A stretch of 64,000 nt of DNA from Rubellimicrobium aerolatum (GTDB lineage: Bacteria > Pseudomonadota > Alphaproteobacteria > Rhodobacterales > Rhodobacteraceae): contig NZ_JAGGJP010000003.1 in the NCBI RefSeq assembly GCF_017872975.1, positions 186,001 to 250,000 on the forward strand, in the 5' to 3' direction. Positions 20,671 to 38,674 of this stretch are shown here, piece by piece. The notes beneath the pieces were generated by a model, which saw only the letters and a program-made list of their open reading frames with translations, had not been told where the DNA came from and made no database searches. Numbering within the stretch: position 1 is the stretch's first letter; each line of letters begins with the position of its first letter. Made by a program: the position numbers and the translations under genes.

Positions 20671-21146
20671 GGCGGGGGCCCCCCCAGCACGGTCCGCACC
20701 CGCCCCTCCATCCGCGCCGTCCCGGCGTCGAGGTCCACCACCAGCCGCTCCCCCGACACCGCGCTTTGCCCCTGCGTCAGCAGCACGTCCCCCGTCAGGA
20801 TCAGCGTCCGCGCCGTCAGGTCGTAGTCCGCCCCCTCGGCCTCGGCGGCCTCGTCCGGCGTGGCCAGCGTCACCCCGCCGGACGCGAGCAGCCGCGCGAT
20901 GGCCCCCGTCGCCGCGTCGTAGAACACCTCGACCGTTCCCGCCGACAGCCGCAGCCCGCCCTGCCCGATCACCACGTCGCCGGTGAAGGTCGCCGCCCCC
21001 GTCGCCTGGTCCACGCTCAGGCTGTCCGCCGTCACCTCGACCGGCGCGGCGGGGTCGGTGGCGAAGCTGCCGCCCAGCGACACCCCCTGCGCGACGGCCC
21101 CCCCGGGGATCAGGAGCGCGAGGACAAGGACGCGCAAGCGGAACAT
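20667..21146 (-). CDS. lptA: LPS transport periplasmic protein LptA
   Basis: 159 residues with a Sec signal peptide (MFRLRVLVLALLIPGGAVAQ) and an OstA/LptA beta-jellyroll (VEVTADSLSVDQATGAATFTGDVVI). It bridges LPS across the periplasm between LptC and LptD. The start at 21146 overlaps the lptC stop and its own stop overlaps the lptB start, so the three genes are translationally coupled. Confidence 0.93.
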   Translation of the reverse strand: MFRLRVLVLALLIPGGAVAQGVSLGGSFATDPAAPVEVTADSLSVDQATGAATFTGDVVIGQGGLRLSAGTVEVFYDAATGAIARLLASGGVTLATPDEAAEAEGADYDLTARTLILTGDVLLTQGQSAVSGERLVVDLDAGTARMEGRVRTVLGGPPP

Positions 21147-21772
21147 CAGGGACCCTCGGCAGTGACCTGGGGATGATATAGCAGCCGCACGCCGCCGTCG
21201 AACAGCAGCCGCGCGGCCCCCGCGCCGTCGCCCGCCTCCAGCGCCAGCCACCCCGCCTCGATCGCGCCGAAGGGCGCGGTCCCCGTCACCGGCCCGGTGA
21301 TGGCGGTCCCGGTGGACAGGTCCGCCGTCACCTCCGGCGTCTCGACCGCCGTGGCCGGGCTCGCCTCCACCCGCACGCCGCCCGCCAGCCGCAGCCGCCG
21401 CGCCGGCCCGTCCACCTCGCCCGTCCCGGCGGTCAGCGTCGCGGTCCCGCCCCCCGGCGTCCGGGTCTCCAGCCGGGGCGCGGCGACGGCGTACACGTCC
21501 TCCCGCCCCGGCAGCGGCGTCAGCCGGTCGGCCGAGAGCGTCACGGTCGTCCCGTCCGGCGCGACCCCCGACAGGCGCGGCCGGTCGATGCGCGGCTCGC
21601 GCGCGATCTCCTCCAGCCGGGCGAAGGGGATGCTGTCCGGCCCCGCCGGCGCGCGCGCCAGCAGGAACATCGTGGACAGGAGCGCCAGCGCCGCCAGCGG
21701 CAGCAGCACCTTGGCCCAGGCGATGGCGCGGCTGCGGCGGCGGAAGGGGATGCGGAAGCCGGGCTCGGCCAT
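21146..21772 (-). CDS. lptC: LPS export protein LptC
   Basis: 208 residues: one N-terminal membrane anchor (AKVLLPLAALALLSTMFLLA) and a periplasmic LptC jellyroll with weakly conserved sequence (DGTTVTLSADRLTPLPG). The identification rests on the anchor, size and position between kdsD and lptA. ATG 21772 is preferred; a GTG at 21781 overlapping the kdsD stop is also possible. Confidence 0.9.
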   Translation of the reverse strand: MAEPGFRIPFRRRSRAIAWAKVLLPLAALALLSTMFLLARAPAGPDSIPFARLEEIAREPRIDRPRLSGVAPDGTTVTLSADRLTPLPGREDVYAVAAPRLETRTPGGGTATLTAGTGEVDGPARRLRLAGGVRVEASPATAVETPEVTADLSTGTAITGPVTGTAPFGAIEAGWLALEAGDGAGAARLLFDGGVRLLYHPQVTAEGP

Positions 21773-21777
21773 CGCCG

Positions 21778-22749
21778 TCACCCCAGCCCCGCCCGCAGGC
21801 AGTCGTGGACATGGAGCACCCCCGCCACCCGCCCCGGCTCGGCCGGGTCCACCACGAACAGGCAGGTGACGCGGCGGGCGTTCATCAGCGCCACCGCCTC
21901 CTCGGCCAGCGCGTCCGGCGCGACGGTCAAGGGCCTGCGCGTCATCACCTCGCCCGCCGTCCGGTCCAGCAGCCCCGCCATGTGCCGCCGCAGGTCGCCG
22001 TCCGTGACGATCCCGACCAGCCGCCCGCCCGCGTCCGTCACGCCCACCACGCCGAACCCCTTGCGGCTCATCTCCAGCAACGCCTCGCCCATCGGGGCGC
22101 CCTCCGCCACCAGCGGCACGGCCGCGCCTCCGTGCATCAGCGCCGCCACCCGCGTCAGCCGCGCCCCCAGCCGCCCGCCGGGGTGGAAGCCGCGGAAGTC
22201 CTCGGGCGTGAAGGCCCGCGCCTCCATCAGCGCGATGGCCAGCGCGTCCCCCAGCGCCAGCATCATCGCCGTCGATGTCGTGGGCACCACCCCGATCCCG
22301 CAGGCCTCCGGCACCGCCGGCAGCAGCAGCGCCACGTCCGACCGCCGCAGCAGCGACGACCCGGCCCGCCCCGCCACCCCGATCAGCGGAATCCCGAACC
22401 GCCGCGTGTGCGCCACGAGGTCCGCCAGCTCCGGCGTCTCCCCCGAATTGGACAGCACCAGCACCACGTCGCCGCGCATCATCATGCCGAGGTCGCCGTG
22501 CGAGGCCTCCGCCGGATGCACGAACTGCGCCGGCGTGCCCGTCGAGGCCAGCGTCGCGGCGATCTTGCGCCCGACGTGCCCCGACTTGCCCATGCCCGAC
22601 ACGACGACCCGGCCCCGCGCGCCCAGGATCGTCTCGACCGCCGTCTCGAACCCGTCCCCCAGCCCCTCGGCCAGCGCGTCCAGCGCCCGCGCCTCCTCGC
22701 GGATCACGCGAAGGGCGGTGGCGCGGGCGCGGGGCGGGTCAATGGGCAA
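21778..22749 (-). CDS. kdsD: D-arabinose-5-phosphate isomerase (KpsF/GutQ family)
   Basis: Converts ribulose-5-phosphate to arabinose-5-phosphate, the first step to Kdo. An N-terminal SIS domain (residues 30-170; VVVSGMGKSGHVGRKIAATLASTGTP; LSNSGETPEL) is followed by two CBS domains (205-320). There is no ATG near the expected N terminus. The TTG at 22749 (LPIDPPRARATALRVIREE), which lies inside the end of rnd, gives a normal length of 323 residues. Two genes later comes LPS export, so Kdo synthesis and LPS transport are clustered. Confidence 0.92.
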   Translation of the reverse strand: MPIDPPRARATALRVIREEARALDALAEGLGDGFETAVETILGARGRVVVSGMGKSGHVGRKIAATLASTGTPAQFVHPAEASHGDLGMMMRGDVVLVLSNSGETPELADLVAHTRRFGIPLIGVAGRAGSSLLRRSDVALLLPAVPEACGIGVVPTTSTAMMLALGDALAIALMEARAFTPEDFRGFHPGGRLGARLTRVAALMHGGAAVPLVAEGAPMGEALLEMSRKGFGVVGVTDAGGRLVGIVTDGDLRRHMAGLLDRTAGEVMTRRPLTVAPDALAEEAVALMNARRVTCLFVVDPAEPGRVAGVLHVHDCLRAGLG

Positions 22750-23350
22750 AGATGTCCACCTCGGGCCACCCGGCCAGGTCGAGCCGCGCCCGCGTCGGCA
22801 GGAACTCGAAGCAGGCCCGCGCGATCTCCGTCCGCCCCTCGCGCGCCAGCAGCACGTCGAGAGCGTCCCGCAGCCGGTGCAGGTGCAGCACGTCCGACGC
22901 GGCATAGTCGAGCTGCGCCGGCGACAGCGCCTCCGCGCCCCAGTCCGACTGCTGCTGCTGCTTGGAGATGTCCACGCCCAGCAGGTCCTGGAGCAGGTAT
23001 TTCAGCCCGTGCCGGTCGGTGAAGGTCCGCACCAGCTTGGACGCGATCTTGGTGCAATAGACCGGCCGCGTCTGCGTCCCGAACGTGTGCTCCAGCACGG
23101 CGATGTCGAACCGCCCGAAATGGAACAGCTTCAGCACCTCCGGGTCGGCCAGCATCCGGCACAGGTTCGGCGCCTCCGTCTGCCCCGGCGCGACCTGCAC
23201 GAGGTGGCAGTTCCCGTCGCCCCCCGACATCTGCACGAGGCAGAGCCGGTCGCGGCCGGGGATCAGGCCCATCGTCTCGCAGTCGATGGCGACCACGGGG
23301 CCGAGATCGAGTCCGTCGGGCAGGTCGCCCTGGTAGAGGTGGTTCGCCAT
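22739..23350 (-). CDS. rnd: ribonuclease D, short form
   Basis: 203 residues: only the DEDD 3'-5' exonuclease domain, with no HRDC domains, as in alphaproteobacterial short RNase D. Motifs: Exo I VVAIDCETMGLIP, Exo II FHFGRFDIAVL, Exo III YAASDVLHLHRL. It matures structured RNAs. It overlaps the kdsD start and is probably the first gene of the kdsD-lpt-hpf-ptsN group. Confidence 0.92.
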   Translation of the reverse strand: MANHLYQGDLPDGLDLGPVVAIDCETMGLIPGRDRLCLVQMSGGDGNCHLVQVAPGQTEAPNLCRMLADPEVLKLFHFGRFDIAVLEHTFGTQTRPVYCTKIASKLVRTFTDRHGLKYLLQDLLGVDISKQQQQSDWGAEALSPAQLDYAASDVLHLHRLRDALDVLLAREGRTEIARACFEFLPTRARLDLAGWPEVDIFAH

Positions 23351-23657
23351 GGCCGTCTCGCGTCTGGGGCAGGGTGGCCTCCAGCTATGCGGGCGAAGGG
23401 CGCGGGTCAATGCGGGGGCCACGCGGGGCCCGGGGGCGAACGGCCCTCGTCCGAGACCCCGTCCAGGGCCCTGCCGCCACGCCCGTTGGCCGAACCGCCG
23501 CCGCCCTCGCCGGACTCCCCCGCCGATTGAATCGAATTGAGCGGAGACGCCATGGACTCGCAAAGGTTGCGCCACGTTTTCGCCGCGATCCGGCCGGATA
23601 TTCACCACGAGCCGGACAGGACGCCGGCCTGACATATTCGGAGTTGGAACAGACCAG
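23351..23657. other. 307-bp divergent intergenic region
   Basis: Separates rnd (minus) from the giant DUF11 gene (plus) and must hold both promoters. A slightly AT-richer patch near 23625-23645 (TGACATATTCGGAG) is the best place for the rightward promoter, but no clear hexamer pair was found. Confidence 0.35.
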
Positions 23658-26600
23658 ATGGACCATGATGCTCGTGCGGACAGCAGGGCGGCGGCCCTGC
23701 ATCCGCCGGCATCCCGACGCCTCGCGCGCCGGCTCTCCCCGCGCGCGCCCACCTTCCGGGCGCCCGCCTTCCGCGCGCCCGTGTTGCGCGTCCCCGGGGC
23801 GGCGCGCGCCCTCGCTCGCGCCCTCGCTCGCGCCCTCGCGCTGGCGCTTCCCCTCGCCGGGCTCCTCGCGGCCCGGCCCGCCCCGGCGCAGGCGCAGAAC
23901 GTCAACTGGGTCGTCAACCTCGACGACACCGGCTCGGACCCGATGCCCGCCGGCGGCACCGTCGCCTACGCCCTGCGGGTGGAGAACGGGGGCTTCGATC
24001 CCGCCCCCGCGACCACCGTCACCCTCGCCGTGCCTTCCGGCGCGACGCTGACCGCCGCCTCCGGCGCGATCGCCGGCTGCGCGCCGCGTCCCGCCACCGG
24101 CCCGGCGCAGGTCACCTGCACCGTCCCCGCGCTTCCCGCCGGCGGCGCGGCCTCCGCCGCCCTCTCCGTGCGGGCGACGGCCTCGGGCATGATCGTCCTC
24201 GGCGCCTCCGTGCCCGCGACCGGCGACATCGACCCCGCCGACAACACGGAAAGCGAGGGAACCACCATCACCCCGGGCGCGGACCTCGCGCTCGCGCTCG
24301 CCGCGCCCGCCTCCGTGCGCGCCGGCGGCCGGGCCGCCATCGTGCTGACCGCCACCAACGCCGGTCCCGGCGCGGCGACCGCGCCCCGCATCGCCTTCAC
24401 CGTCCCCACGGGCCTCGTCCGCCTGGGCCTGCCCACCGGCTGCGCGCTGTCGGGGACCACCGTCACCTGCTCCGCCGCCAGCCTCGCCCCCGGCGCGCAG
24501 ATGGCCTTCACCGTCACCGGGCAGGCGGCGGTGGCCGGCGGCTCGACCCTCGCCCTCGCCGCCGCGACGGCGCTGGCCTCGCCCACCGACCCCGTGCCGG
24601 GCAACGACACCGCGACGCGGACCCTTTCCGTCACCGCCGGCAGCGACCTCGCCCTGACCAAGGCGCGGACCCCGGCCTCGCGCATCTACGTGGACGACGC
24701 CGCGACCTTCACGCTGACGCCCACCTACACGGGCGACGCGCCCCAGGCCGTGACCGTCACCGACACCGTCCCCGCGAGCTACCGGATCGATTCGGTCACC
24801 GCGCCCGGCTGGACCTGCGCCACCCAGGGCCAGGCCGTGACCTGCGCGCGCGCGGCCGTCACCGGCGCGGGGCAGGACCGCCCGCTCGGCCCCATCGTCC
24901 TCGGCGTCACCGCGCTGGCGGCGGGCTCGCCCGTCAACGCCGCCTCCATCGCCGCCCAGGCCCCCGCCGACCCGGACGCCACCAACAACGCGGCCAGCGA
25001 CGGCGGTCCCGCCATCGCCGCCCGCTACATCGACCTCGTGGCCCGCAAGTCGGGGCCGAGCCCCGCCCTCGTGGTCGTCGGCAACCGCTACGACTTCCGC
25101 CTCGGCGCCTCCAACGCCGGCAACATGGGCCTCGTCGGCACCGTCGAGGTCGCGGACGACCTCCCCGCCGGCATGACCGCCACCGGCTACGCCGGCGCCG
25201 GCTGGACCTGCCTCCCCGCCGCCCCCGTCGCCGGCCCCGCCCGGATCACCTGCGCGCGCGCCTACGCCTCGGCGGGTCCGCTCGCCGCCGGGGCCGCCAC
25301 CCCCGACGCCACCATCCGGGTCGAGATCACGGGCACCGGCCCCCTGACCAACGCGGCGACCGTCCACAGCCCCGACGCGGCCCCGCCCGACCTCCTCCCC
25401 GGCAACGACGCGGCGGCGGCGACCGTGACCGGCAGCCTCGTCCCGGCCACCGCCGACCTGCGGGTGATCAAGACCGCCCGCGCCGCCAGCGTCGCCGCCG
25501 GCGACCCGCTGGCCTTCGACATCGAGATCGTCAACGACGGCCCGCAGCCCGCCACGGCGGTCACCCTGACGGACCAGCTCGACGGCCTGATGAACGGCGG
25601 CACGGGGGCGACCGGCGCGGGCCTCGTGTCCATCGACACGAGCCGGGCCCCCGGCCTGTCCTGCGGCTCCGCCGCGACCTCGCCCACCGGGCGGCGGCTG
25701 ACCTGCACGGCGGCCAGCCTCCCCGCCTGCCAGCCGGGCGTCGATTGCCCCGTCGTCGCCGTGACCGTCCGGCCCGGCGGCAACGCCTCCGCGCGGACCA
25801 ACGCGGCCTCCGTCCTCTCGGACCAGGTGGCCGACCCCGACCTCGCCAACAACGAGGGGCAGGCCGCCCACGCGGTGACCGCCCGCGCCGACGTGACCGT
25901 GACCCTGGCCGCCGCGCCCGCCTCGGCCACCGCCGGGCAGGGCCTCGCCTACACCCTGACCGCCATCAACCAGCCCAACGGCCTCAGCGACGCGCAGGCC
26001 GTGTCGGTCACGCAAAGCCTGCCGCCCGGCGTCGTGCTGCTGTCGGTCACCCCGTCCTGCGCCTCGGGCCCCGCCGTGGGAGAGCTGATCTCCCCTGCCT
26101 CCGCGCCCCTCGCCTGCGACCTCGGCCCCCTCGCCAACGGCGCGCAGCGGGCGGTGACCGTGGTCGTCCGGCCCACCGACGCCACCGCCTCCACCACCCT
26201 GACGAGCGTGGCCACCGTCGCCACCTCCACGCCCGAGACGGACACCGGCAACAACGCCGCCACCCGCGCCACCCCGGTCGCGCCGCCGGTCGTCGATCTC
26301 CAGGTCAACCAGTCCGACACCGTCGATCCCGTCACCATGGACGACGCCACCACCTACACCGTCATCCTCCGCAACAACGGCCCCTCCGCCGCCGAGGACG
26401 CGCGCCTGACCGACCAGCTCCCCGCGACGCGGCTTGCCTTCCAGTCCGTCGCCGCCCCCGGCGACGCCACCTGCACCGCGCCCGCCGTGGGCGCCCTCGG
26501 CGGGGTCCTGACCTGCGCCGTCCCCCTCCTCCCCGCCGGGGAAAGCCGCACGGTCGCCGTGACCCTCCGCGCCGTCGCCAAGGGCGTCGCCGCCAATACC

Positions 26601-29600
26601 GCCACCGCCTCCTCCTTCGAGACGCGGACCTGGGCCGACGCCAACCCCGCCAACAACCAGGCGGTCGAGAACACCACCATCCGCACCCGCGCCGACATCC
26701 GCGTGACGGAGAAGCGGGCCTCGCCCGCCACCGTCAGCCTCCGCGACGACTTCGACTGGCTGGTGACGCTCGACAACCGCCAGGCCCCCGGCCTGAGCGA
26801 GGCCGACAACGTCACCCTGACCGACACCCTGCCCGCCGGGATGCGCCTCACCGGGCCGCCGGTCGTGCAGTCCTCCTCCGACCCCGCCCTCGCGGCGGGG
26901 ACCACCTGCACCGGCGCGGCCGGGGCCACCGCCTTCACGTGCAGCCTCGGCACGGTCCCGCCCGGGGCCAGCCTCGTGCTGCGCGTCCCCGCCGAGGTCG
27001 TGGAGGTCGCCGCCCGGCCGCAGGCCTTCGCCAACACGGCATCGGCCACCACCTCCTCCTACGACGCGGACGGGACGAACAACGCCGCCACCGGCACGGT
27101 GACGGTCGGCTCCTCGTCGCTCGCCGGGACGGCCTTCCGCGACTTCGACCGCCAGGGCGACCTCGACGCCGGCACCGACACCGGCCTCGCCGGCCTGACC
27201 ATCACCCTGGAGGGGCAGAGCCACGACGGCCAGCCTATCTCCCGCGCGACGACCACCGCCGCCGACGGCGGCTACGCCTTCCCCTTCCTGCCCGCCGGAA
27301 CCTACGCCATCGCGGGCGGCCCGTCCGGCGAGGCCCATCTCGCCCCCGGCGCGGCGATCCCCGGCTCGACCGGCGGCACCCCGGCCCCGGGCGGCGCGCG
27401 GCTGGAGGGGATCCAGCTCCCCGCCAGCGCCGTCTCGACCGGCAACGACTTCACGCGCCACCCGCAGCCGCGCCTCGGCCTTGCCAAGGCGGTGCAGGCC
27501 GGTCCCGCGCCGAACGGCGACGGCTCCTACGACGTGACCTTCCGCCTCCAGCTCCGCAACCTCGGGGCCGAGCCGCTGCGGAACGTCGCCGTCACCGACG
27601 CCCTCGCCGGGCCCGCCCCCGCCTTCGGGGGCCTCGCGCCCGGATCGGGCCCCCTGCCGGCGGGCGGCTACCGCCTCCTCGCGGCCCCCGGCGGGACCTG
27701 CGCGGGTCTGAACCCCGGCTTCGACGGCCAGGGCGACGCGACGCTCGCGGCGGGGCTGGCCCTCGCGCCCGGCGCGGCCTGCGCCATCGACCTCGCGATC
27801 CGGGTGCAGCCCGCCGCGCCCCTGCCCGCCGCGCTCCTGTCCGGCTACCGCAACCAGGCCCAGGCCACGGGCGAGGGGGCGCTCTCCGCCGCCACCCCGA
27901 CGACCGAGCCCTTGCTTCAGGACCTGTCCGACGACGGGACCGCGCCCGACCCCAACGGCAACGGCCGCGCCGACGACGCGGGCGAGGACGACCCCACGCC
28001 CGTCCTCCTGCCCGCCGCCGCGCCCGCCATCGCCCTCGTCAAGACGATCGACCCCGTCCCCCCCGCGCCTCTGGCGGTCGGCGACACCCTCGCCTACGCC
28101 CTGACGGTCACCAACACCGGCAACGTCGCCCTGACCGGGATCGCCGTCGCCGACCCCAACGCCACCGTGACCGGCGGCCCCGTCCCGCTCCTGCGGCCTG
28201 GCGAGGCATCGACCGCCTTCGTCGCCACCCATGTCGTGACCGAGCAGGACCTCGCCCTCGGCGCGATCGTCAACCAGGCCACCGCCACCGGCACCTGGGC
28301 CGCCTCGGGCGGCGCGCCGGCGGTCGCCGACCCGTCCGGCGCGACCGTGGCCGACGATGTGCCGACGGTCTGGACGCTCGGCCCGGCCCTGGGCCTCGTC
28401 GCCGTCAAGTCGGTGCTGGCCCTGGAGGACGCGACGGGCGACGGCATGATCGGGGCGGGCGACCGGGTGCGCTACCGTCTCGCGCTGACCAACGCCGGCC
28501 GGCTGACGCTGGGCGGCTTCGTGGTGACCGACCCGAACGCCGCCCTGGTCGGGACGCCGCCCGCCGCGCTCGCCCCCGGCGCGACCGACACGAGCCTCGA
28601 GGCGCTGCACGTCCTCACGCAGGCCGAGGTGGACCGGGGCTGGCTCGACGCCCAGGCCGAGGTTCACGCCCGCGCCGTCGCGGCCGGCACCGGGGCGATC
28701 CTCCTCGACGCCAACGGGTTACCGCTGGAAGTGGCGGACCTGTCCGACGCCGGCACCGACCCCCTGCGCGCAGCCGTCGCCGCCCCCGCCACCACGGAGA
28801 CCGAGGGCGGCGCGGGCGGCCCCGGCAACGGCGACCCGGGCGACGACCCGACGCCCCTGCGGCTGGGCCAGGTGGCCGAGCTGGAGCTGGTGAAGTCCTT
28901 CACCGGCTTCCGGGACATCAACGGCAGCGGCGTCACCGACGCGGGCGACCGTGCGGGCTATGCCTTCGCGCTGCGGAACCGGGGCAATGTCGCGCTCCGG
29001 GTCACGCTGGCCGATCCGGGCGCGGACGAGGTGGCGGCGCCCCCCCTGCTGCTCGCCCCCGGCGAGATCGTCCCGCAGGCGGGCACCGCCTGGCGGGCGC
29101 TGGGCCCGCGCGACATCGCCCGCGCCTGGGTCGAGAACCGGGCCACCGCCACCGCCGAGGCCCTGGACGACGCCGGCGCGCCGCTCCTGGCCGGCGGCGC
29201 GGCGCTGGTGGTCGAGGACCTGTCCGACACCGGCACCGACCCCGAGGGCGCGACCCTGCCGGACCCGGCGGCCCTGGACTCCCCCGACGCCTCGGGCGCC
29301 ACCGACGGCGATCCCGGCAGCGACCCGACCGTCGTCCGGGTGCCGCGCGACGTGGCGCTGTCCCTCGTCAAGTCGGTGACGGGGGTGGAGGACCTGAACG
29401 GCAACGGCCGGACCGACCCGGGCGACCGCGTGACCTACGGCTTTCACGTCGCCAACCCCGGCAACCTGCGGGTGGCCGGGATCACCCTGGCCGACCCGGG
29501 GGCCGAGGTCGCGGGCGGCCCCCTGGATCTCGACCCGGGCATGGGCGACGCGACCGCCTTCACCGCGACCCGGCTCCTCACGCAGGAGGACATGGATCGC

Positions 29601-31184
29601 GGCTGGCTCGCCAACAGCGCCACCGTCACCGGCACGGCGCAGGGCCCCGACGGCCCCGCCCTGGGCCCCGATGGCGCGCCGCTTTCCGTCAGCGACCAGT
29701 CCGACGCGGGCACCGGCCCCGACCTCGCCCCCGTGCCCGAGCCCGAGGGGCGGGAGACTCCCGACGGCGCGGGCGCGACCGACGGCGACCCCGCGAACGA
29801 CCCGACCGTGCTCGCGCTCGCGCGGCATCCGGCGGTGACGCTCGTCAAGACGGCGGACGTCTCGGCCTTGGGCGATCCGGCGCGGGCGGGCGACCCGATC
29901 CGCTACGCCTTCACCGTCACCAACACGGGCGACGTGACGCTCCGGGACGTGACCCTGACCGACCGCCTCGTGGGGGTGGACCTGCGCGGCGGCCCCATCC
30001 CGGCCCTCGCCCCGGGGGAGAGCGACTCCACCACCTTCACCGCCACCTACCGCCTGACCGAGGCCGACCTCGACGCCGGCCGGGTGGAGAACCAGGCCCT
30101 CGTCGTCGCCCTCTTCGGCCCCGACGCCGAAGAGGTCGTGCAGGACGAATCCGGCCAAGGCCCCGACGACGACGAGGCGACGCGCGTGACCTTCGCCACC
30201 GGCACGCCGGGCGGGCTCACCCTCGCCAAGACGGCCGACCGGGAGGAGGCGCGCGTCGGCGACCTCGTGGGCTACGCGATCACCCTCGCCAATCCCCGGC
30301 GCGGCCTCGCCGCCACCGCCGCCATCGTGGACGACCTGCCCGAGGGGTTCCTCCCCCAGCGGGACTCGGTCGAGATCGGGGGGCGGGCCGCCGCCGCCCG
30401 GATCGACGGCCGGCGCGTCGTCGTGCCCGGCCTCGACGTCCCGCCCGGCGAAAGCGTGACGATCACCCTGCGCGCGCTCGTCACCGCCGAGGCGCGCCCG
30501 GGCGGGCACGTCAACCGCGCCCAGGCCGTCGCCGCCGACGGCGAGCCCCTGACCGCCGTGGCGGAAGCCACCGTCCGCGTCGTGGCCGAGGCGGTGTTCG
30601 ACTGCGCCACCGTGATCGGGCACGTCTTCGACGACCGCGACCAGGACGGCCACATGCGCGGCGTGGACGAGGGGGGCCTGCCCGGCGTCCGCCTCGTGGC
30701 CCCGGACGGGCTGGCGGTGAACGCCGACGCCCAGGGCCGCTTCAGCCTGCCCTGCGCCGCGCTCCCGCCCCAGCGCGGCGCCAACGTCCAGCTCCGCCTC
30801 GATGAACGGACGCTGCCCACCGGCTACCGCGTCACCACCGAGAACCCGCGCGTCGTGCGCGTCACGCCCGGCATGGTGACGCGGATGAACTTCGGGGCCG
30901 CCCTGCCGCGACTGGTGCGGATCGACGTCGCCGCGCGCGCCTTCCACGGCCTCGATCCCCGGCCCGAGCTGCTGCGGGCGCTCGACGCCCTGGTGGCCCG
31001 GATCGCCGACCAGCCCTCGGTGCTGCGGATCGCCTACCGGGCCGAGGGCGAGGACTCCGCCCTCGTGCGCGGGCGGATCGCCGCCGTCGCGGCCGCGCTG
31101 CGCGCCCGCTGGCCCGTGAACGGTCGCCACGATCCGGTCATCGAGGCGACGGCGCTGGGCTCCGCCCGCGTCGGCGGGCGGTGA
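23658..31184 (+). CDS. giant DUF11-repeat exported protein with C-terminal OmpA-like region
   Basis: 2,508 residues. A long N terminus carries a hydrophobic signal (ALARALALALPLAGLLAARP, then AQAQ). About 14 DUF11-type Ig-like repeats of roughly 110-150 residues follow; most start with a motif like ADLRVIKTA or ALVKTIDPV and contain VTNTGNV and NNAA. An SdrD-B-like domain lies near residue 1155 (LAGTAFRDFDRQGDLDAGTD) and a second near 2315 (VIGHVFDDRDQDGHMRGVDE). The last 80 residues resemble an OmpA-type peptidoglycan-binding region (LRIAYRAEGEDSALVRGRIA). Later repeats carry Asp-rich, possibly Ca-binding loops (DLNGNGRTDPGDR). The likely role is a surface or periplasm-spanning filament or adhesin working with the barrel protein encoded next, whose start overlaps its stop. 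Confidence 0.85.
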   Translation: MDHDARADSRAAALHPPASRRLARRLSPRAPTFRAPAFRAPVLRVPGAARALARALARALALALPLAGLLAARPAPAQAQNVNWVVNLDDTGSDPMPAGGTVAYALRVENGGFDPAPATTVTLAVPSGATLTAASGAIAGCAPRPATGPAQVTCTVPALPAGGAASAALSVRATASGMIVLGASVPATGDIDPADNTESEGTTITPGADLALALAAPASVRAGGRAAIVLTATNAGPGAATAPRIAFTVPTGLVRLGLPTGCALSGTTVTCSAASLAPGAQMAFTVTGQAAVAGGSTLALAAATALASPTDPVPGNDTATRTLSVTAGSDLALTKARTPASRIYVDDAATFTLTPTYTGDAPQAVTVTDTVPASYRIDSVTAPGWTCATQGQAVTCARAAVTGAGQDRPLGPIVLGVTALAAGSPVNAASIAAQAPADPDATNNAASDGGPAIAARYIDLVARKSGPSPALVVVGNRYDFRLGASNAGNMGLVGTVEVADDLPAGMTATGYAGAGWTCLPAAPVAGPARITCARAYASAGPLAAGAATPDATIRVEITGTGPLTNAATVHSPDAAPPDLLPGNDAAAATVTGSLVPATADLRVIKTARAASVAAGDPLAFDIEIVNDGPQPATAVTLTDQLDGLMNGGTGATGAGLVSIDTSRAPGLSCGSAATSPTGRRLTCTAASLPACQPGVDCPVVAVTVRPGGNASARTNAASVLSDQVADPDLANNEGQAAHAVTARADVTVTLAAAPASATAGQGLAYTLTAINQPNGLSDAQAVSVTQSLPPGVVLLSVTPSCASGPAVGELISPASAPLACDLGPLANGAQRAVTVVVRPTDATASTTLTSVATVATSTPETDTGNNAATRATPVAPPVVDLQVNQSDTVDPVTMDDATTYTVILRNNGPSAAEDARLTDQLPATRLAFQSVAAPGDATCTAPAVGALGGVLTCAVPLLPAGESRTVAVTLRAVAKGVAANTATASSFETRTWADANPANNQAVENTTIRTRADIRVTEKRASPATVSLRDDFDWLVTLDNRQAPGLSEADNVTLTDTLPAGMRLTGPPVVQSSSDPALAAGTTCTGAAGATAFTCSLGTVPPGASLVLRVPAEVVEVAARPQAFANTASATTSSYDADGTNNAATGTVTVGSSSLAGTAFRDFDRQGDLDAGTDTGLAGLTITLEGQSHDGQPISRATTTAADGGYAFPFLPAGTYAIAGGPSGEAHLAPGAAIPGSTGGTPAPGGARLEGIQLPASAVSTGNDFTRHPQPRLGLAKAVQAGPAPNGDGSYDVTFRLQLRNLGAEPLRNVAVTDALAGPAPAFGGLAPGSGPLPAGGYRLLAAPGGTCAGLNPGFDGQGDATLAAGLALAPGAACAIDLAIRVQPAAPLPAALLSGYRNQAQATGEGALSAATPTTEPLLQDLSDDGTAPDPNGNGRADDAGEDDPTPVLLPAAAPAIALVKTIDPVPPAPLAVGDTLAYALTVTNTGNVALTGIAVADPNATVTGGPVPLLRPGEASTAFVATHVVTEQDLALGAIVNQATATGTWAASGGAPAVADPSGATVADDVPTVWTLGPALGLVAVKSVLALEDATGDGMIGAGDRVRYRLALTNAGRLTLGGFVVTDPNAALVGTPPAALAPGATDTSLEALHVLTQAEVDRGWLDAQAEVHARAVAAGTGAILLDANGLPLEVADLSDAGTDPLRAAVAAPATTETEGGAGGPGNGDPGDDPTPLRLGQVAELELVKSFTGFRDINGSGVTDAGDRAGYAFALRNRGNVALRVTLADPGADEVAAPPLLLAPGEIVPQAGTAWRALGPRDIARAWVENRATATAEALDDAGAPLLAGGAALVVEDLSDTGTDPEGATLPDPAALDSPDASGATDGDPGSDPTVVRVPRDVALSLVKSVTGVEDLNGNGRTDPGDRVTYGFHVANPGNLRVAGITLADPGAEVAGGPLDLDPGMGDATAFTATRLLTQEDMDRGWLANSATVTGTAQGPDGPALGPDGAPLSVSDQSDAGTGPDLAPVPEPEGRETPDGAGATDGDPANDPTVLALARHPAVTLVKTADVSALGDPARAGDPIRYAFTVTNTGDVTLRDVTLTDRLVGVDLRGGPIPALAPGESDSTTFTATYRLTEADLDAGRVENQALVVALFGPDAEEVVQDESGQGPDDDEATRVTFATGTPGGLTLAKTADREEARVGDLVGYAITLANPRRGLAATAAIVDDLPEGFLPQRDSVEIGGRAAAARIDGRRVVVPGLDVPPGESVTITLRALVTAEARPGGHVNRAQAVAADGEPLTAVAEATVRVVAEAVFDCATVIGHVFDDRDQDGHMRGVDEGGLPGVRLVAPDGLAVNADAQGRFSLPCAALPPQRGANVQLRLDERTLPTGYRVTTENPRVVRVTPGMVTRMNFGAALPRLVRIDVAARAFHGLDPRPELLRALDALVARIADQPSVLRIAYRAEGEDSALVRGRIAAVAAALRARWPVNGRHDPVIEATALGSARVGGR
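23806..23841. repeat. 12-bp near-triplication in the DUF11 signal-peptide region
   Basis: GCGCCCTCGCTC is repeated nearly three times and encodes the ALAR repeats just before the hydrophobic core. Confidence 0.8.
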
Positions 31185-34100
31185 GCGTCGCCATGGCCCC
31201 CTTCCGCTCCCCTTCGACGATCGGCCGCCCCGCGGGCCTTGCCGCCATGGCCGCGCTCTGCGGCCTGCTGCCCGCGCTCGCGCTGGCCGATCCGTCCGGC
31301 GGGTCCTGCGCCCCTGCCGGACCCTGCGCGGCCTCTGCGTCGCCGGATCCCGCCCCCGAGGTGGGCCTCGGCTTCTCCATCTCCATCGAGGGCGCGACCC
31401 CGGAGGGGGAGCCGGTGCGGCAGGTCATCGCCGGCGACCCGGCCCCTCCGGTTCCGCCCGAACCGGCCGGACCCGACCCGCTCCCGCCCGATCTGACAGC
31501 GGACCTCGGCCTGTCCGAGCCGGCCACTCCCGACGACCTCGCGCGGGCGGCGGATCGGCGGCTCGCGGCGGCGGATGTCCAGCTCCGCTTCGACGGTCTG
31601 GGCGTGCGGCCCCGGCTCGACGTCGCCGCCGCCGGGTCGGCCGACGGGACGGTGACCTTCCGGGCCTCCTCCAACTACCCCGCCTGGATCAAGCGGGCCG
31701 AGATCCTCATCCGCCAGAGGGGCCGGCCCGGCCGGGTGATCGCCGAAATTCCCATTGCCCCCAACGGCGAGGCGACCTGGACCATGCCCCCGGCCGGGCC
31801 CGCGCGCCTCGACTACGTGCTGCGCGTCTACGACGGCGCGGGCCGCCATGACGAGACGGTCGTGCGTCCCCTGGAACCGGGAGTCGCCGGGACCGACCCT
31901 TCCCTCCCCGGCGAGGGGGAGGGCCGCATCGCCCGGCGCGGCATCCCCCTCCGGGGCGGCGCCGTCACCCTGAGCGGCGAGGGCCTGCCCCCCGGCACGA
32001 CCGTCACCGCCCTGGGCGGGCCCGTGCCGGTGGACCCCTCGGGCCGCTTCGTCGTGCAGCGCGTCCTTCCGCCGGGCGACCACGAGATCGCCGTGACCCT
32101 GGCCTCGCCCGGCCGGCCGGCCCGCACCATCGCCCGCACGGTGACCATCCCCCGGGCCGAGTGGTTCGCGACCGGCATCGCCGACGTGACCCTGGGCCGC
32201 GGCGTGGCCGAGGGCGGCGGGCCGGGCACCGGGCGGCTCGCCGCCTTCGCGGACGGCTGGCTGGCGGACGGCACCCGCGTCACCGCCTCGGCGGACACGG
32301 GCGAGGGCGACCTCGACGGCCTGCTGCGCCGCGTCGGCCGCAAGGACCCCGACGCCATCCTGCGCGGGATCGAGCCCGACGAGGTCTTCGCCGTCACCGG
32401 CGACGACTCCGCGACCGAAGAGCTCGCCCCCAGCCGCGACGGGCTGTATCTCCGGGTCGAGAACGGGCCGAGCCATCTGATGCATGGCGATTTCCAGCCG
32501 CTCTCGGACCCGGGCCTCTCGGCGCGGACCGACCGGACGCTGACGGGGATCGAGGGGAGCCACGGCTCGCGCGCCGTCACCCGCCACGGGGAGGAGCGGC
32601 TCCGCCTGTCCGCCTTCGCCGCCCGGCCCGACACCCTGAGCCAGCGCGACGTGCTGCGCGGCACCGGCGGCAGCGCCTATGTCCTGGGCCGGCAGGACAT
32701 CGAGGACGGGACCGAGGTCCTGACGGTGGAGCTGCGCGATCCCGTCTCGGGCCGGCTGGTCGAATCGCGCCGCCTCGTGGCCGGGACCGACTACCGCATC
32801 GAATACCTTCAGGGCGTGGTCCTCCTGGCCGAGCCGCTGGCCCCCTCCGCGTCCCGGCCGGGGCTGGTGTCGGACGCACCGGGGGGCGATCTCGTGGTGA
32901 ACCTCGTCGCGCGATACGAATACGTCCCCACGAACGGGGAGGTCGGCGGGCTGGCCGCCGGGGCGCGCGCCGAGGCCTGGGTCACCGACGGCCTGCGCTT
33001 GGGCGCCTCGGCGCTCTCCGACGACAGCGGGCTCGCGGCGCAACGCCTGCTCGGGCTCGACCTCCTCCTCCGGCGCAGCGACGAGACCTGGGCCGCCCTC
33101 GACTGGGCGCGGAGCGAGGGGCCGGGCTTCGGCTCCACCCTGTCGGTGAACGGCGGCCTGCGGAGCGAGGAGATGCCCTCGGCAGGGCGGGTGGGACTAG
33201 GGGCGCAATCCATCCGCCTGGAGGGTCGCGCCGACCTCGCGGAGATCGGGCTGACCGGGCACGTCGAGGGGTTCCTGGACCGCAAGGAGGCCGGGTTCTC
33301 CTCGCCCGACCAGGAGGTCGCGGCGGATCAGGTCGCCGCCGGGATCGGCGGAACAATCGCGTTGCGCGACGGACTGGGCGTCACCTTCGGGGCGGAGCGC
33401 TTCGATGCCGCCACGGGCGAGGCGCGACGCGACGTCCGGCTGGGGCTTGCGGCGGAGATGCGGCCCCGCCTCGCCCTCGACGCCGAGGTGCTCCGCACCG
33501 AGCGGGCGGACCCCGACGACGCCGACGGCACCGGCCGCCGCACCGACATCGCCGCGCGCCTGACCTGGATCCCCGACGCAGCCACGAGCTACGCCCTCTT
33601 CGCGCAGGCCACATTGGGTCGGCGGGGGCTGCCGTCCAACGACCGGCTGGGCCTGGGCCTGACGCGCCGCCTGACCGACGCCCTCGCGGTCGAGGGCGAG
33701 GTGTCGGGCGGCTCGGCCGGTCCCGCCGCCGCCGCGCGGATCGCCTACGAGCCGAGCCCGGGAACCCGCTACAGCCTGGGCTACAGGACCGACCCGGCGC
33801 AGGCCGACGGGACCGGCCTCGTGCTCGGAATGGAACGCCCGCTGGGCCCCCGCCTGACCGCCCGCGCCGAGACGGCCTGGGGCGTCCGAGGCGACGATCC
33901 CTCCGTCCTGCAGAGCTACGGCGTGACCTTCGCCCCCGACGAGACCTGGGCGATCGAGGGGGGCCTGCTCCGGGGCCGGTCGGTGGAGGCCGGCGGGACC
34001 GAGCTGCGGCGGACGGGCGTCTCCCTGAGCCTCCGCCGCACCCTTGGGGAGGAGCTGCGCGCCTCCCTGCGGGCCGAGCTGCGCCGCGAGACCTCGGACG

Positions 34101-34753
34101 GGCCGATGGCCGATGACCGGACCACATGGTTGCTCGCGGGGTCCTACGACCGCCGGACCAGCCCGGACTGGCGGCTGCTCGCCGACCTCGACCTGCTGTT
34201 CTCCGACGCCGACGAAGGCTCGTTCCTCGACGGCCGATACGCGGAGGCGCGGCTGGGCTACGCCTTTCGCCCGGCCGACCACGACCGGATCAACGCACTG
34301 TTCAGCTACACCTTCCTGTATGACATGCCCGGCCCCGATCAGGTCAACGTGGACGGCGACGCCGAGGGCGACCGGCAGCGCAGCCACATCCTGAATGCCA
34401 TCGTCACCTGCGAACTGGGCCCGCGCTGGACGCTTTCGGCCAAATACGGCTTCCGCCGCCGCGAGCAGGCGTCGCGCGCGGGCGGCGGTTACGACCTCTC
34501 GACCGCGCATCTGGCCGCCGTCCGGCTCGACTACCATCTGGTGCACGACTGGGACCTGATGGCCGAGATGCGCGCCATGATCCTGCCGGGAGCCCGCGCC
34601 ACCGACCGGGGCGCGGTGCTGGGCCTCTACCGGCATGTCGGCCGCAACATCCGCCTGGGAGTGGGCTATGAATGGGGCCGGGTGTCGGACGACCTGCGCC
34701 GCATCGAGGGCGACCGCGAGGGGTTCTTCGTCAACATCACCGCGTCGTTCTGA
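31181..34753 (+). CDS. outer-membrane beta-barrel partner of the DUF11 protein
   Basis: 1,190 residues. A signal peptide (GLAAMAALCGLLPALALA) is followed by a periplasmic beta region (residues 120-300, including VTFRASSNYPAWIKRAEILI and an Ig-like segment VTLSGEGLPPGTTVTALGG). From about residue 325 comes a long barrel-like region rich in alternating aromatic/polar strands, ending VNITASF with a terminal Phe, the BAM signal. Segments such as RKDPDAILRGIEPDEVF and VTGDDSATEELAPSRDGLYL match the barrel proteins encoded beside DUF11 proteins in sphingomonads (from memory). The GTG at 31181 overlaps the upstream stop; ATG 31193 is an alternative. Confidence 0.8.
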   Translation: MSVAMAPFRSPSTIGRPAGLAAMAALCGLLPALALADPSGGSCAPAGPCAASASPDPAPEVGLGFSISIEGATPEGEPVRQVIAGDPAPPVPPEPAGPDPLPPDLTADLGLSEPATPDDLARAADRRLAAADVQLRFDGLGVRPRLDVAAAGSADGTVTFRASSNYPAWIKRAEILIRQRGRPGRVIAEIPIAPNGEATWTMPPAGPARLDYVLRVYDGAGRHDETVVRPLEPGVAGTDPSLPGEGEGRIARRGIPLRGGAVTLSGEGLPPGTTVTALGGPVPVDPSGRFVVQRVLPPGDHEIAVTLASPGRPARTIARTVTIPRAEWFATGIADVTLGRGVAEGGGPGTGRLAAFADGWLADGTRVTASADTGEGDLDGLLRRVGRKDPDAILRGIEPDEVFAVTGDDSATEELAPSRDGLYLRVENGPSHLMHGDFQPLSDPGLSARTDRTLTGIEGSHGSRAVTRHGEERLRLSAFAARPDTLSQRDVLRGTGGSAYVLGRQDIEDGTEVLTVELRDPVSGRLVESRRLVAGTDYRIEYLQGVVLLAEPLAPSASRPGLVSDAPGGDLVVNLVARYEYVPTNGEVGGLAAGARAEAWVTDGLRLGASALSDDSGLAAQRLLGLDLLLRRSDETWAALDWARSEGPGFGSTLSVNGGLRSEEMPSAGRVGLGAQSIRLEGRADLAEIGLTGHVEGFLDRKEAGFSSPDQEVAADQVAAGIGGTIALRDGLGVTFGAERFDAATGEARRDVRLGLAAEMRPRLALDAEVLRTERADPDDADGTGRRTDIAARLTWIPDAATSYALFAQATLGRRGLPSNDRLGLGLTRRLTDALAVEGEVSGGSAGPAAAARIAYEPSPGTRYSLGYRTDPAQADGTGLVLGMERPLGPRLTARAETAWGVRGDDPSVLQSYGVTFAPDETWAIEGGLLRGRSVEAGGTELRRTGVSLSLRRTLGEELRASLRAELRRETSDGPMADDRTTWLLAGSYDRRTSPDWRLLADLDLLFSDADEGSFLDGRYAEARLGYAFRPADHDRINALFSYTFLYDMPGPDQVNVDGDAEGDRQRSHILNAIVTCELGPRWTLSAKYGFRRREQASRAGGGYDLSTAHLAAVRLDYHLVHDWDLMAEMRAMILPGARATDRGAVLGLYRHVGRNIRLGVGYEWGRVSDDLRRIEGDREGFFVNITASF

Positions 34754-36397: not shown

Positions 36398-36447
36398 TCA
36401 GGCGGCGGCGCGGTCGCTGGCGGTGAGCCGGAGCGCCGACAGCTCGG
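36176..36447. repeat. three degenerate copies of the 3' end of the GGDEF-EAL gene
   Basis: Copies at about 36176-36225, 36280-36334 and 36395-36447 share CCGGAGCGCCGAC and flanking GCGTCAGGCGGC / GGTCG blocks. The third is the true 3' end of the gene (LSALRLTASDRAAA); the first two lie beyond the stop. Confidence 0.75.
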
Positions 36448-38542
36448 AGACGGGCATCGGGCGGCCGAGGTGGAAGCCCTGGACGAGGTCGCAGCCGAGC
36501 TCGGCCAGCAGGCGCAGGTCGTCCTCGGACTCCACGCCCTCGCAGACCACCTCCAGGTCGAGGCCATGGGCCATCTGGATCATGGTCCGCAGGAGGGCAT
36601 GCCGCTTGGGCGAGTGCCGCACCTCCGAGACGAAGGAGCGGTCGATCTTGAGGGTGTCGAAGCTGAGCTGGTCGAGATAGGCGACGGAGGAGTAGCCCGT
36701 CCCGAAATCGTCGAGCGCGACGCCGAACCCAGCGGCCCGCAGTTCGTGGAGGTGGCGGGCCGCCTGGGCGGGATCGCGGACGAGGACCGATTCGGTCAGC
36801 TCCACCTGGATGCGGGCGGGATCGATGGACCGCGCCCGCAGGTCGGCCACGAGGTCGGCGATGAAGTCGGGCGCGAGGAGCTGAAGCGACGAGATGTTGA
36901 CGCTGACCCGCAGGCCGGCATCCGCCGCGAGGTCGTCGCGGACCCGGCCCAGGATGATCCGGCCGAGGTCGATCACGAGGCCCGCCTTCTCGGCCAGGGC
37001 GATGAAGCGATCGGGCGGAACCTCGCCATGCTCGGCCGAGGTCCAGCGCGCCAAGGCCTCGGCGCGGCGGAACCGGCCGTCGATGCCCAGGATCGGCTGG
37101 TAGGCAACCGAGAACTCCTCGGGGCGGGCGGCCAGCGCGGTCCGCAGCGCCCGCTCCAGCACGAGGGCGTTGCGGACCCCTTCCTCGATCAGGGCGCCGA
37201 AGGCCACGGGCGCCCGCCCGCCCAGGCGCTTGCCCTCGTACATGGCGAGGTCGGCCTGCCGGACCAGATCCGCGCCGCGCATGGCGTCGCCGTCCTGGAC
37301 GGCGTAGCCGATCGCGGCGCTCACGCGCAGTTGGTGGCCCAGCACCTCGAAGGGGTCGTCGAAGCTTCGGGCGATGGCCTCGGCCAGCGCGGCGATCCGC
37401 TCCCTGGCCTCGGGGCCCGTCACCATCAGCACGAACTCGTCGCCCGAGATCCGCGCGAGCAGGGCGCCCGGCCCCAGGAGGAGGGCGATGCGACGGGCCA
37501 GGGAGACGATCACCGCGTCGCCCGCCGCGTGGCCCAGGCTGTCGTTGACCCCCTTGAAGCCGTTGAGATCGAGGAACAGGATCGCCCGTTCGCCCGTGCG
37601 GGCGGGGAGGGCCAGCGCCTCCTGGAAGGCGGCCCGGTTGGGCAGGCCCGTCAGGGGGTCGCGCCGCGCCGCGGTCGAGGCCCGCTGCTCGGCCGCCACG
37701 AGGTCCGACGCGCTCCTCCGCAGCAGGCGCATGGCGAGGATCGCGAGCAGGGCGGTCGCCACCGCCACGAGCGAGAGCGGGACGAGCAGCCGGTCCAGCA
37801 TGGCCGTCCCGGGGCGCGGCACGTCCCAGGTGATGTGGCCGACGGGCGTCCCATCGACCCCGGGCAGGGTCACGGAGGGCCGATCCGGGGCGGGCCGGCG
37901 GACCACCTCCAGCCCGGTGAGGGCGATGGCGTCGGCGATGCCGGCGACCAGGCCCCTGTCGATGCGGATGCCCATGACGAGCTGGCCGACCTGACGCTTC
38001 GCCTCGGGGAAGAGGGGGGCGTTCTCCACCGGCTCGAAGTGCGAGGCGCCGAGCACGAACAGCCCGCCGTTGCGCCACGCGAAGAACTCCGTGCCGCCGA
38101 AGGTGCCGGGCCGGGCGCCGGCCAGTTGCCGGTCCACCGCCGCCCGCGTCGCGGGGGGCAGGATGCCGGGCTGCCCGGACTTGTCGCCGCCGGTCTCCCA
38201 GCCGATGTCGATGTCGGAGGGCCCGCCCCAGATGGCGGCGAGCTGCACCGCCTCGCCCATGAGGGCCGAGGAGCCGATGTTGTCGAAGAGCCAGGCCGCG
38301 TCGCCGTCGAGGATCGCCCGGTGGGCCGCGTCCCACTTGGCGTAGTCGATGGTGATGACCCGGGCCTGGGAGAGGAGGTGGTCCCGGGCGACGCGGGCCT
38401 GCGTCTCGGATTGGGTGAGCGCCTGCCGGTCGAGCGCCTGCGCCATCCAGAGGATCGAGGCGACCGTCGTCGTCGCGAAGATCAACATCGCGACGCCGGT
38501 CACGCTGGCGATCAAACTGGGCAGCCTGTGCATCGTCGCCAT
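36398..38542 (-). CDS. membrane CHASE4-GGDEF-EAL c-di-GMP protein, probably a phosphodiesterase
   Basis: 714 residues. TM1 (about 8-30), a periplasmic CHASE4-type sensor (DYAKWDAAHRAILDGDAAW), TM2 (about 240-262; LLVPLSLVAVATALLAILAM), GGDEF, then EAL. The GGDEF signature is SGDEF (about residue 365) with no RxxD inhibitory site before it, so cyclase activity is doubtful. The EAL domain keeps its catalytic set: EALARW, NISSLQ, VELTES, LDDFGTGYSS, LKIDRSF, CEGVES and VQGFHLGRP. ATG 38542 is chosen; ATG 38533 is possible. It lies 132 bp downstream of mrpG on the same strand. Confidence 0.92.
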   Translation of the reverse strand: MATMHRLPSLIASVTGVAMLIFATTTVASILWMAQALDRQALTQSETQARVARDHLLSQARVITIDYAKWDAAHRAILDGDAAWLFDNIGSSALMGEAVQLAAIWGGPSDIDIGWETGGDKSGQPGILPPATRAAVDRQLAGARPGTFGGTEFFAWRNGGLFVLGASHFEPVENAPLFPEAKRQVGQLVMGIRIDRGLVAGIADAIALTGLEVVRRPAPDRPSVTLPGVDGTPVGHITWDVPRPGTAMLDRLLVPLSLVAVATALLAILAMRLLRRSASDLVAAEQRASTAARRDPLTGLPNRAAFQEALALPARTGERAILFLDLNGFKGVNDSLGHAAGDAVIVSLARRIALLLGPGALLARISGDEFVLMVTGPEARERIAALAEAIARSFDDPFEVLGHQLRVSAAIGYAVQDGDAMRGADLVRQADLAMYEGKRLGGRAPVAFGALIEEGVRNALVLERALRTALAARPEEFSVAYQPILGIDGRFRRAEALARWTSAEHGEVPPDRFIALAEKAGLVIDLGRIILGRVRDDLAADAGLRVSVNISSLQLLAPDFIADLVADLRARSIDPARIQVELTESVLVRDPAQAARHLHELRAAGFGVALDDFGTGYSSVAYLDQLSFDTLKIDRSFVSEVRHSPKRHALLRTMIQMAHGLDLEVVCEGVESEDDLRLLAELGCDLVQGFHLGRPMPVSELSALRLTASDRAAA

Positions 38543-38674
38543 CTTCCCCAGCCGCCATGCGCGCCGCCCCGGCCGGGGTGGGCCGGGAGGATGTCCATGA
38601 ATCGCCCGGCCCGCCAAGACGCGGACCATCGTCCCTGTCGATCATGGCAGGGATTCGTCAATAAATCGTTAACG

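Follow-up and report, generated by a model that had tools for sequence, protein, structure and literature searches.

A giant DUF11-repeat protein and a predicted outer-membrane barrel protein encoded side by side in Rubellimicrobium aerolatum: a candidate anchored surface fibre

Two-partner secretion systems (TpsA/TpsB) couple a giant exported protein to a dedicated barrel whose gene lies beside it. Type Ve inverse autotransporters combine a barrel, an immunoglobulin-like (Ig-like) rod and, in some members, a peptidoglycan-interacting periplasmic domain (excerpt of PMC6555100). In Myxococcus, the surface receptor TraA and its barrel partner TraB, which carries an OmpA domain, are encoded by overlapping genes of one operon (excerpt of PMC6372800), and SprA of the type 9 secretion system is a very large single-chain barrel of 36 strands (excerpt of PMC9581022). 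The gene pair described here, which shares ingredients with these systems, lies in a 64,000-nucleotide stretch of Rubellimicrobium aerolatum DNA (assembly GCF_017872975.1, contig NZ_JAGGJP010000003.1, positions 186,001 to 250,000 of the forward strand; hereafter the window). The first gene, p1, encodes a giant DUF11-repeat protein, and the second, p2, a protein that is likely to be an outer-membrane barrel. Because p1 and p2 are inherited together in many Pseudomonadota and are fused in some species, they very probably build a single device of the cell envelope, of which an anchored surface fibre is the likeliest form.

No description of the p1-p2 pair was found in the literature searched, in which the excerpt of PMC6304850 deals with DUF1176 and DUF1849, and that of PMC12282271 mostly with DUF1194. 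Relatives of p2 in plasmid records are often annotated as TonB-dependent receptor or hypothetical protein. An earlier sequence-only reading of the window had proposed that the two proteins form a coupled, two-component surface or envelope-spanning structure. The extents and lengths that it gave for both open reading frames (ORFs) are borne out by the ORF list, and the overlap of the two genes that it reported holds if p2 starts at the GTG at 31181, which gives a four-base overlap, but would become an 8-base gap if translation begins at the in-frame ATG at 31193. An overlap of exactly four bases is found in 15 of the 53 upstream-linked rows of the linkage table introduced below, with ORF starts set at the first possible codon. 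A signal-peptide-like stretch is visible by eye at the N-terminus of both proteins.

Co-inheritance was assessed in 198 genomes of the same family, at thresholds of E 5e-25 or better for p2 and at least 200 bits for the p1 end. The barrel gene was detected in 27 genomes and the p1 end in 23, all of them within the 27; both genes are therefore present in 23 genomes, p1 alone in none, p2 alone in 4 and neither in 171. Frequent occurrence of either gene by itself is not seen, in keeping with the coupling proposed earlier. The four genomes with p2 alone, in which the p1 end was not found, comprise three whose p2 is cut off by a contig end (G021, G155 and G166) and one, G115, that holds a 273-aa remnant. 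Among the 23, G120 is represented by mere fragments of the two genes at contig ends; G054 carries an additional orphan p1-end piece of 247 aa, and the 171 genomes scored as having neither include at least two with a fused relative (G067 and G177). The association extends to a sample of 398 Pseudomonadota genomes, in which all 17 with a p1 end of at least 200 bits have a p2 match (16 strong, and G120 at 197 bits) and all 22 with p2 at 200 bits or more have a p1-end match, six of these being weaker (91-104 bits). The p2 profile matches 60 of the 398 genomes, most of those beyond the 22 strong ones being fused relatives matched in the core region, and 11 of the 289 genomes of a class-level sample; both counts take in fused relatives and the window's own genome.

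The barrel gene is also carried by plasmids (21 records), whose hosts include Paracoccus, Sulfitobacter, Roseovarius, Loktanella, Sinorhizobium, Devosia, Eleftheria and Vibrio campbellii. On a Paracoccus alcaliphilus plasmid (L056, 11121-15659), p1 is reduced to two pieces, of 238 and 203 aa, which are separated by annotated IS110 and IS5 transposase genes, and a long p2 ORF adjoins. A p1-p2 pair with an OmpA domain ending p1 is present on a contig filed as viral (L060, IMGVR_UViG_2684623061_000001), which may be host DNA around a prophage; scans of viral contigs for more homologues added nothing beyond that contig and one distant fused relative.

Gene order and natural fusions point in the same direction. 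The linkage table holds 84 rows from 81 loci, some of them from one genome, three rows being second pieces of a broken p2; p1 was recognised in it by its SdrB-like base, so that it may be cut short. With five contig ends and one remnant set aside, 75 loci were judged: p1 lies directly upstream of p2 in 52 (the window included), downstream in 2, is fused to it in 19 and is not adjacent in 2. Two of the fused loci, L115 and L136, were counted as such because DUF11 and the p2 core occur within one ORF. The DUF11 part precedes the core in 19 of 19 fused ORFs, and the SdrB-like domain, present in 17, comes between the two. A 78-row tree of the p2 core gathers 17 of the fused proteins in one large clade, inside which the split pairs L134 and L142 are nested, and puts the fused L113 and L125 within the split clade or at its base. 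This topology implies at least four fusion changes if L135, which is truncated by a contig end, is counted, three if it is left out and two if the long-branched L113 is left out as well, suggesting that the gene boundary has moved at least twice and probably three times. Smaller exported proteins (about 170-980 aa) recur beside the fused giant gene (L050-L054, L114 and L138-L140), with a DUF11 match in five of the six tested (one below the cut-off), and may be additional components of this structure or its cargo. Of the structure proposed from sequence alone, its standing as one unit is thus upheld by co-occurrence, linkage and natural fusions, while its surface or envelope-spanning topology is something that we infer.

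The window p2 matches no Pfam family above the cut-off, and a profile search of PDB sequences yielded no solved structure that matches it. Across 28 members of its family, OMP_b-brl is matched by 12 (best 1.8e-9), the porin-like family BBP2 weakly by 8, and YadA_anchor by 4 (best 4.6e-5), the last without a match in the window protein. Residues 573-1190 contain 27 amphipathic strands, compared with a mean of 10.4 and a maximum of 19 in 500 shuffles, and the final residue is phenylalanine in at least 90% of the rows of the 28-row alignment. On these family matches and this long meander, p2 is likely to be a barrel, and by its sequence it appears to belong to an unnamed barrel family, whose ORFs without an added OmpA domain span 1048-1432 aa.

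The partner, p1, is a DUF11 repeat protein by two family models, with 369 bits for Pfam DUF11 over 11 stretches (cut-off 24.6) and E 1e-63, 211 bits, for NCBIfam B_ant_repeat (cut-off 24); the DUF11 fold we take to be Ig-like. With our own profiles, 14 repeats are matched, though two of the matches are short and weak; this agrees with the roughly 14 Ig-like repeats counted by the sequence-only reading. Its two SdrD-B-like domains were recovered as well, the first with a match just below the family cut-off (Table 1) and the second through homologues, since Pfam SdrD_B matches 21 of 31 homologous p1 ends but not residues 2305-2412 of the window protein. Cysteine pairs are close together in repeats 1-8, wider apart in repeat 9 and absent from the other five, and those of the first eight repeats would suit p1 to an oxidising compartment. 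The base is conserved, with 43% mean column identity over a 31-row alignment in which the two cysteines of the last SdrB-like domain are invariant in all rows. In the same family, p1 frames not cut by contig ends range from 2004 to 4810 aa, and on a Sulfitobacter guttiformis plasmid p1 reaches 6195 aa by record coordinates; plasmid pSG53 of this species carries an intact pair. Because the rod varies while base and barrel stay constant, the arrangement resembles a stalk of adjustable length.

The OmpA-like end that had been assigned to p1 stands only in part. Aligned with the OmpA domains of relatives by hhalign, the p1 end gives a probability of 84% (E 7.5e-6), compared with 1.8% or less in six of seven controls; the seventh, the neighbouring SdrB-like domain, gives 65%, over an alignment of 8 columns of shared flank, and a smaller comparison of the p1 end with OmpA gives 35% (E 4e-4). 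Pfam OmpA has no match at E<=1 among the 31 homologous p1 ends, and a p1-end profile run against PDB sequences places PomB on top at a non-significant E of 0.21. As a statement of ancestry read from these alignments, 'OmpA-like' is right, for a distant relative only. In OmpA domains, an aspartate and an arginine bind diaminopimelate; this arginine and the aspartate of the GHTD motif are invariant in 10 of 10 aligned OmpA domains, and the window's p1 end retains only the arginine.

Many relatives do possess a genuine OmpA domain, which travels among the parts of the system. By our own profile, one to three copies open p2 in L057, L107, L111, L112, L120-L122 and L124, and the domain closes p1 in L060, L126-L128, L131 and L146. 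Fused proteins contain it in L137-L141 (in L141 it also precedes the SdrB-like domain), and a separate third gene encodes two copies of it in L058, L130, L132 and L133 and one in L134 and L143. Pfam OmpA confirms the fused protein of L139 (1.2e-9), the Vibrio third gene of L058 (5.8e-35) and the p2 of L057 (1.1e-10), the calls in the remaining relatives being those of our own profile. In Vibrio campbellii (L058, 17331-18236) and in three further genomes (L130, L132 and L133), the third gene that encodes two OmpA domains lies after p2. The repeated association of the hinge between stalk and barrel with a wall-binding module would place this hinge in the periplasm.

We consider it somewhat better supported than not that the pair forms an outer-membrane device in which p2 is the barrel, the p1 base is docked to it and the rod projects from the cell. 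In such a device, p2 would form a large beta-barrel in the outer membrane, and the p1 base, consisting of the SdrB-like and degenerate OmpA-like domains, would dock at p2 beside its N-terminal, presumably periplasmic, domain. The DUF11/Ig-like rod of p1 would project outward as a length-variable stalk or adhesin, p1 would probably be exported through or along p2, and in the many relatives with a genuine OmpA domain at the hinge this domain would tie the assembly to the cell wall. A bolder proposal, which we hold only tentatively, is that the pair represents a distinct and as yet unnamed display system of Pseudomonadota, autotransporter-like but acting in trans, with a giant, length-variable Ig-like stalk that has a C-terminal base, a very large barrel of its own with 30 or more strands that exports and holds the stalk, a wall-binding OmpA module at the hinge that shifts between genes, and one barrel able to serve more than one stalk.

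A number of observations weigh against the surface-fibre reading. The strand count argues for beta structure and not for a barrel as such, because the N-terminal domain of p2 also beats its shuffles: residues 120-330 contain 9 amphipathic strands and just exceed a shuffle maximum of 8, with a density per 100 residues of 4.3 that is close to the 4.4 of the barrel region, while the 7 strands of residues 335-572 do not exceed a maximum of 9. An AlphaFold model of p2 residues 111-1190 from a three-sequence input is of low confidence (predicted local distance difference test, pLDDT, 44.4; predicted template modelling score, pTM, 0.34), as is a single-sequence model of the p1 C-terminus (pLDDT 44.4, pTM 0.30), which takes a beta-alpha-beta-alpha-beta form. 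The p2 model has 32 strands of at least 8 residues from residue 574 onward; in favour of a barrel, its best 50 of 916 matches in a Foldseek comparison are all outer-membrane barrels by title, with LptD on top (E 7e-6), at template modelling (TM) scores of only about 0.1-0.4. For the p1-end model the top PDB match is a DUF3823 protein, at E 0.049, and its best 50 of 531 structural matches include no OmpA domain; at these confidence levels, the PDB comparisons of both models offer no more than a hint. The barrel profile matches only 9 of the 19 fused ORFs. Wall binding by the window's own p1 end is doubtful on sequence grounds, since the conserved aspartate is missing from its OmpA-like end.

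The linkage data also contain exceptions of the same tenor. The order is reversed, with p2 before p1, in L021 (Pararhizobium) and in L119/L155; in L021, the p1 gene leaves one end of the contig record and a p1 end sits at the other, which suggests a circular replicon. Unlinked genes are found in L109 and L110, from two congeneric genomes (G418 and G314), each of which has two p1-like genes at separate loci (2951 and 1068 aa; 3336 and 1114 aa), with p2 absent from the fetched stretches. These p1-like proteins extend about 110-125 aa past the OmpA-like domain. Each genome carries a single complete p2 elsewhere, accompanied by a 4545-aa fusion in G418 and a p2 fragment in G314, and this combination suggests that p2 can act in trans, perhaps serving more than one stalk.

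Above all, nothing in these data separates surface exposure from a periplasmic scaffold, in which p1 would run along or across the periplasm and, together with p2 and OmpA, tether the outer membrane to the wall with no display. The recurrence of OmpA domains at the p1/p2 hinge and the presumed periplasmic position of the N-terminal domain of p2 would fit such a scaffold, and DUF11 domains alone are no proof of surface location; yet a p1 of 2000 to more than 6000 aa, most of it repeats, would far exceed the width of the periplasm, and its length varies widely where base and barrel do not, so that we regard a scaffold as unlikely. Arrangements akin to two-partner secretion, with p2 exporting a p1 that is then released or forms a layer and leaves no lasting stalk on p2, could explain why a dedicated large barrel adjoins a giant exported repeat protein, and G418 and G314, each with two unlinked p1 genes and one complete p2 that stands by itself, would suit a barrel working in trans. 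The natural single-chain fusions favour lasting attachment, however, the conserved base and OmpA hinge resemble an anchor, and TpsB/ShlB, POTRA and TPS domains are absent from the Pfam matches of the 28 p2 members and of the window p1, all of which makes mere secretion decidedly improbable. A chance pairing, in which p2 would be an ordinary TonB-dependent receptor or porin encoded next to an unrelated surface protein, p1, is scarcely credible: 7 of the 21 plasmid records do name p2 'TonB-dependent receptor', and the weak BBP2 matches point to porin-like families, but neither Plug nor TonB_dep_Rec is found at E<=0.1 among the 28 members, and the co-inheritance, coupling and fusion of p1 and p2 contradict it.

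Table 1. Features of the p1-p2 locus, with positions counted from the first base of the window
Feature	Residues	Window position	Strand	Basis or remark
p1, 2508-aa DUF11-repeat protein, predicted to be exported		23658..31184	+	ORF; DUF11 4e-112; signal-peptide-like N-terminus by eye
Eight Ig-like repeats of DUF11 type, a short-range Cys pair in every one	p1 83-1142	23904..27083	+	own profile, Cys list
First SdrD_B-like domain	p1 1158-1219	27129..27314	+	Pfam SdrD_B 27.3 bits, cut-off 29.7
Second Ig-like block (DUF11/DUF7507), six matches, two short and weak	p1 1273-2296	27474..30545	+	
Conserved SdrB-like base domain, invariant Cys 2316 and 2366	p1 2305-2412	30570..30893	+	31-row alignment
Degenerate OmpA-like C-terminal domain, GHTD Asp absent, Arg kept	p1 2412-2508	30891..31181	+	hhalign
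GTGA, p2 start codon overlapping p1 stop codon		31181..31184	+	alternative p2 start ATG 31193
p2, 1190-aa protein, likely outer-membrane barrel		31181..34753	+	ORF; 28-row family alignment
P2N, conserved beta-rich N-terminal domain, presumed periplasmic	p2 120-330	31538..32170	+	
p2 core (GDDS ... GTGGS.Y.L ... GxDYxIxYxQGV), common to fused proteins	p2 335-600	32183..32980	+	
p2 barrel region (putative), Phe at end	p2 605-1190	32993..34750	+	

Among the 25 largest clusters of neighbouring ORFs of at least 150 aa, no general neighbour of p1-p2 was found. The neighbours seen in at least four loci, spanning two-gene loci, are an ATP-binding cassette (ABC) transporter ATPase (9), an acyl-CoA-ligase-like protein (5) and the Vibrio-like third OmpA gene (4). 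In the window, minus-strand ORFs at 19849-22905 read by eye like a lipopolysaccharide-transport cluster (ABC ATPase, OstA/LptA-like protein and KpsF-like isomerase with CBS domains), and downstream of p2 a protein of the GGDEF-EAL cyclic-di-GMP type, also recognised by eye, is encoded on the minus strand at 36398-38629. Two long minus-strand frames antisense to p1 (23385-28667, 1760 aa; 28719-31130, 803 aa) are judged to be shadow ORFs of GC-rich coding sequence.

If the surface-fibre reading is true, it would provide a frame for many giant DUF11 proteins and add another route to an anchored surface fibre, and the natural fusions would make both docking and topology testable. Among barrel proteins of other kinds, the usher family is not among the Pfam matches of the 28 p2 members, and neither is Autotransporter, the family of type Va, a rod-first single chain being found only in the fused relatives. 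For type Vc trimeric autotransporters the signs are mixed: four of the 28 p2 members match YadA_anchor, the C-terminal family of such adhesins, but this trimeric anchor is short, and the long single-chain barrel region of p2 is unlike it. A GxDYxxDYxxG-like motif may be a further likeness between SprA and p2; by sequence, p2 is not placed with SprA or the type 9 translocon, with no Pfam SprA_N match and no SprA among the PDB-sequence profile matches. Two-partner secretion differs in that TpsA bears an N-terminal secretion domain, where p1 has a conserved C-terminal base instead, and membership in it was set aside on the Pfam matches given above.

The closest likenesses are to the inverse autotransporters and to TraA/TraB. 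The type Ve proteins (intimin, invasin, YeeJ) have the same ingredients, an outer-membrane barrel and an Ig-like rod, and p1 has a repeat passenger of this sort, but they are single chains with a 12-stranded barrel first and the rod last, whereas in p1-p2 the rod comes first and a larger barrel region last, usually in a separate gene. No inverse autotransporter family appears among the Pfam matches of the 28 p2 members, and the domain order differs. TraB consists of a barrel followed by thrombospondin repeats and OmpA, and TraA has a PA14-like domain and MYXO-CTERM; when relatives of p1-p2 have an OmpA domain, unlike in TraB it lies ahead of the barrel or is encoded by a gene of its own. PA14-like, MYXO-CTERM and thrombospondin families are absent from the Pfam and NCBIfam matches, and the pair is set apart from TraA/TraB by domain order and family matches and not by direct sequence comparison. 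By analogy, p1-p2 would work like the inverse autotransporters or TraA/TraB while belonging to neither.

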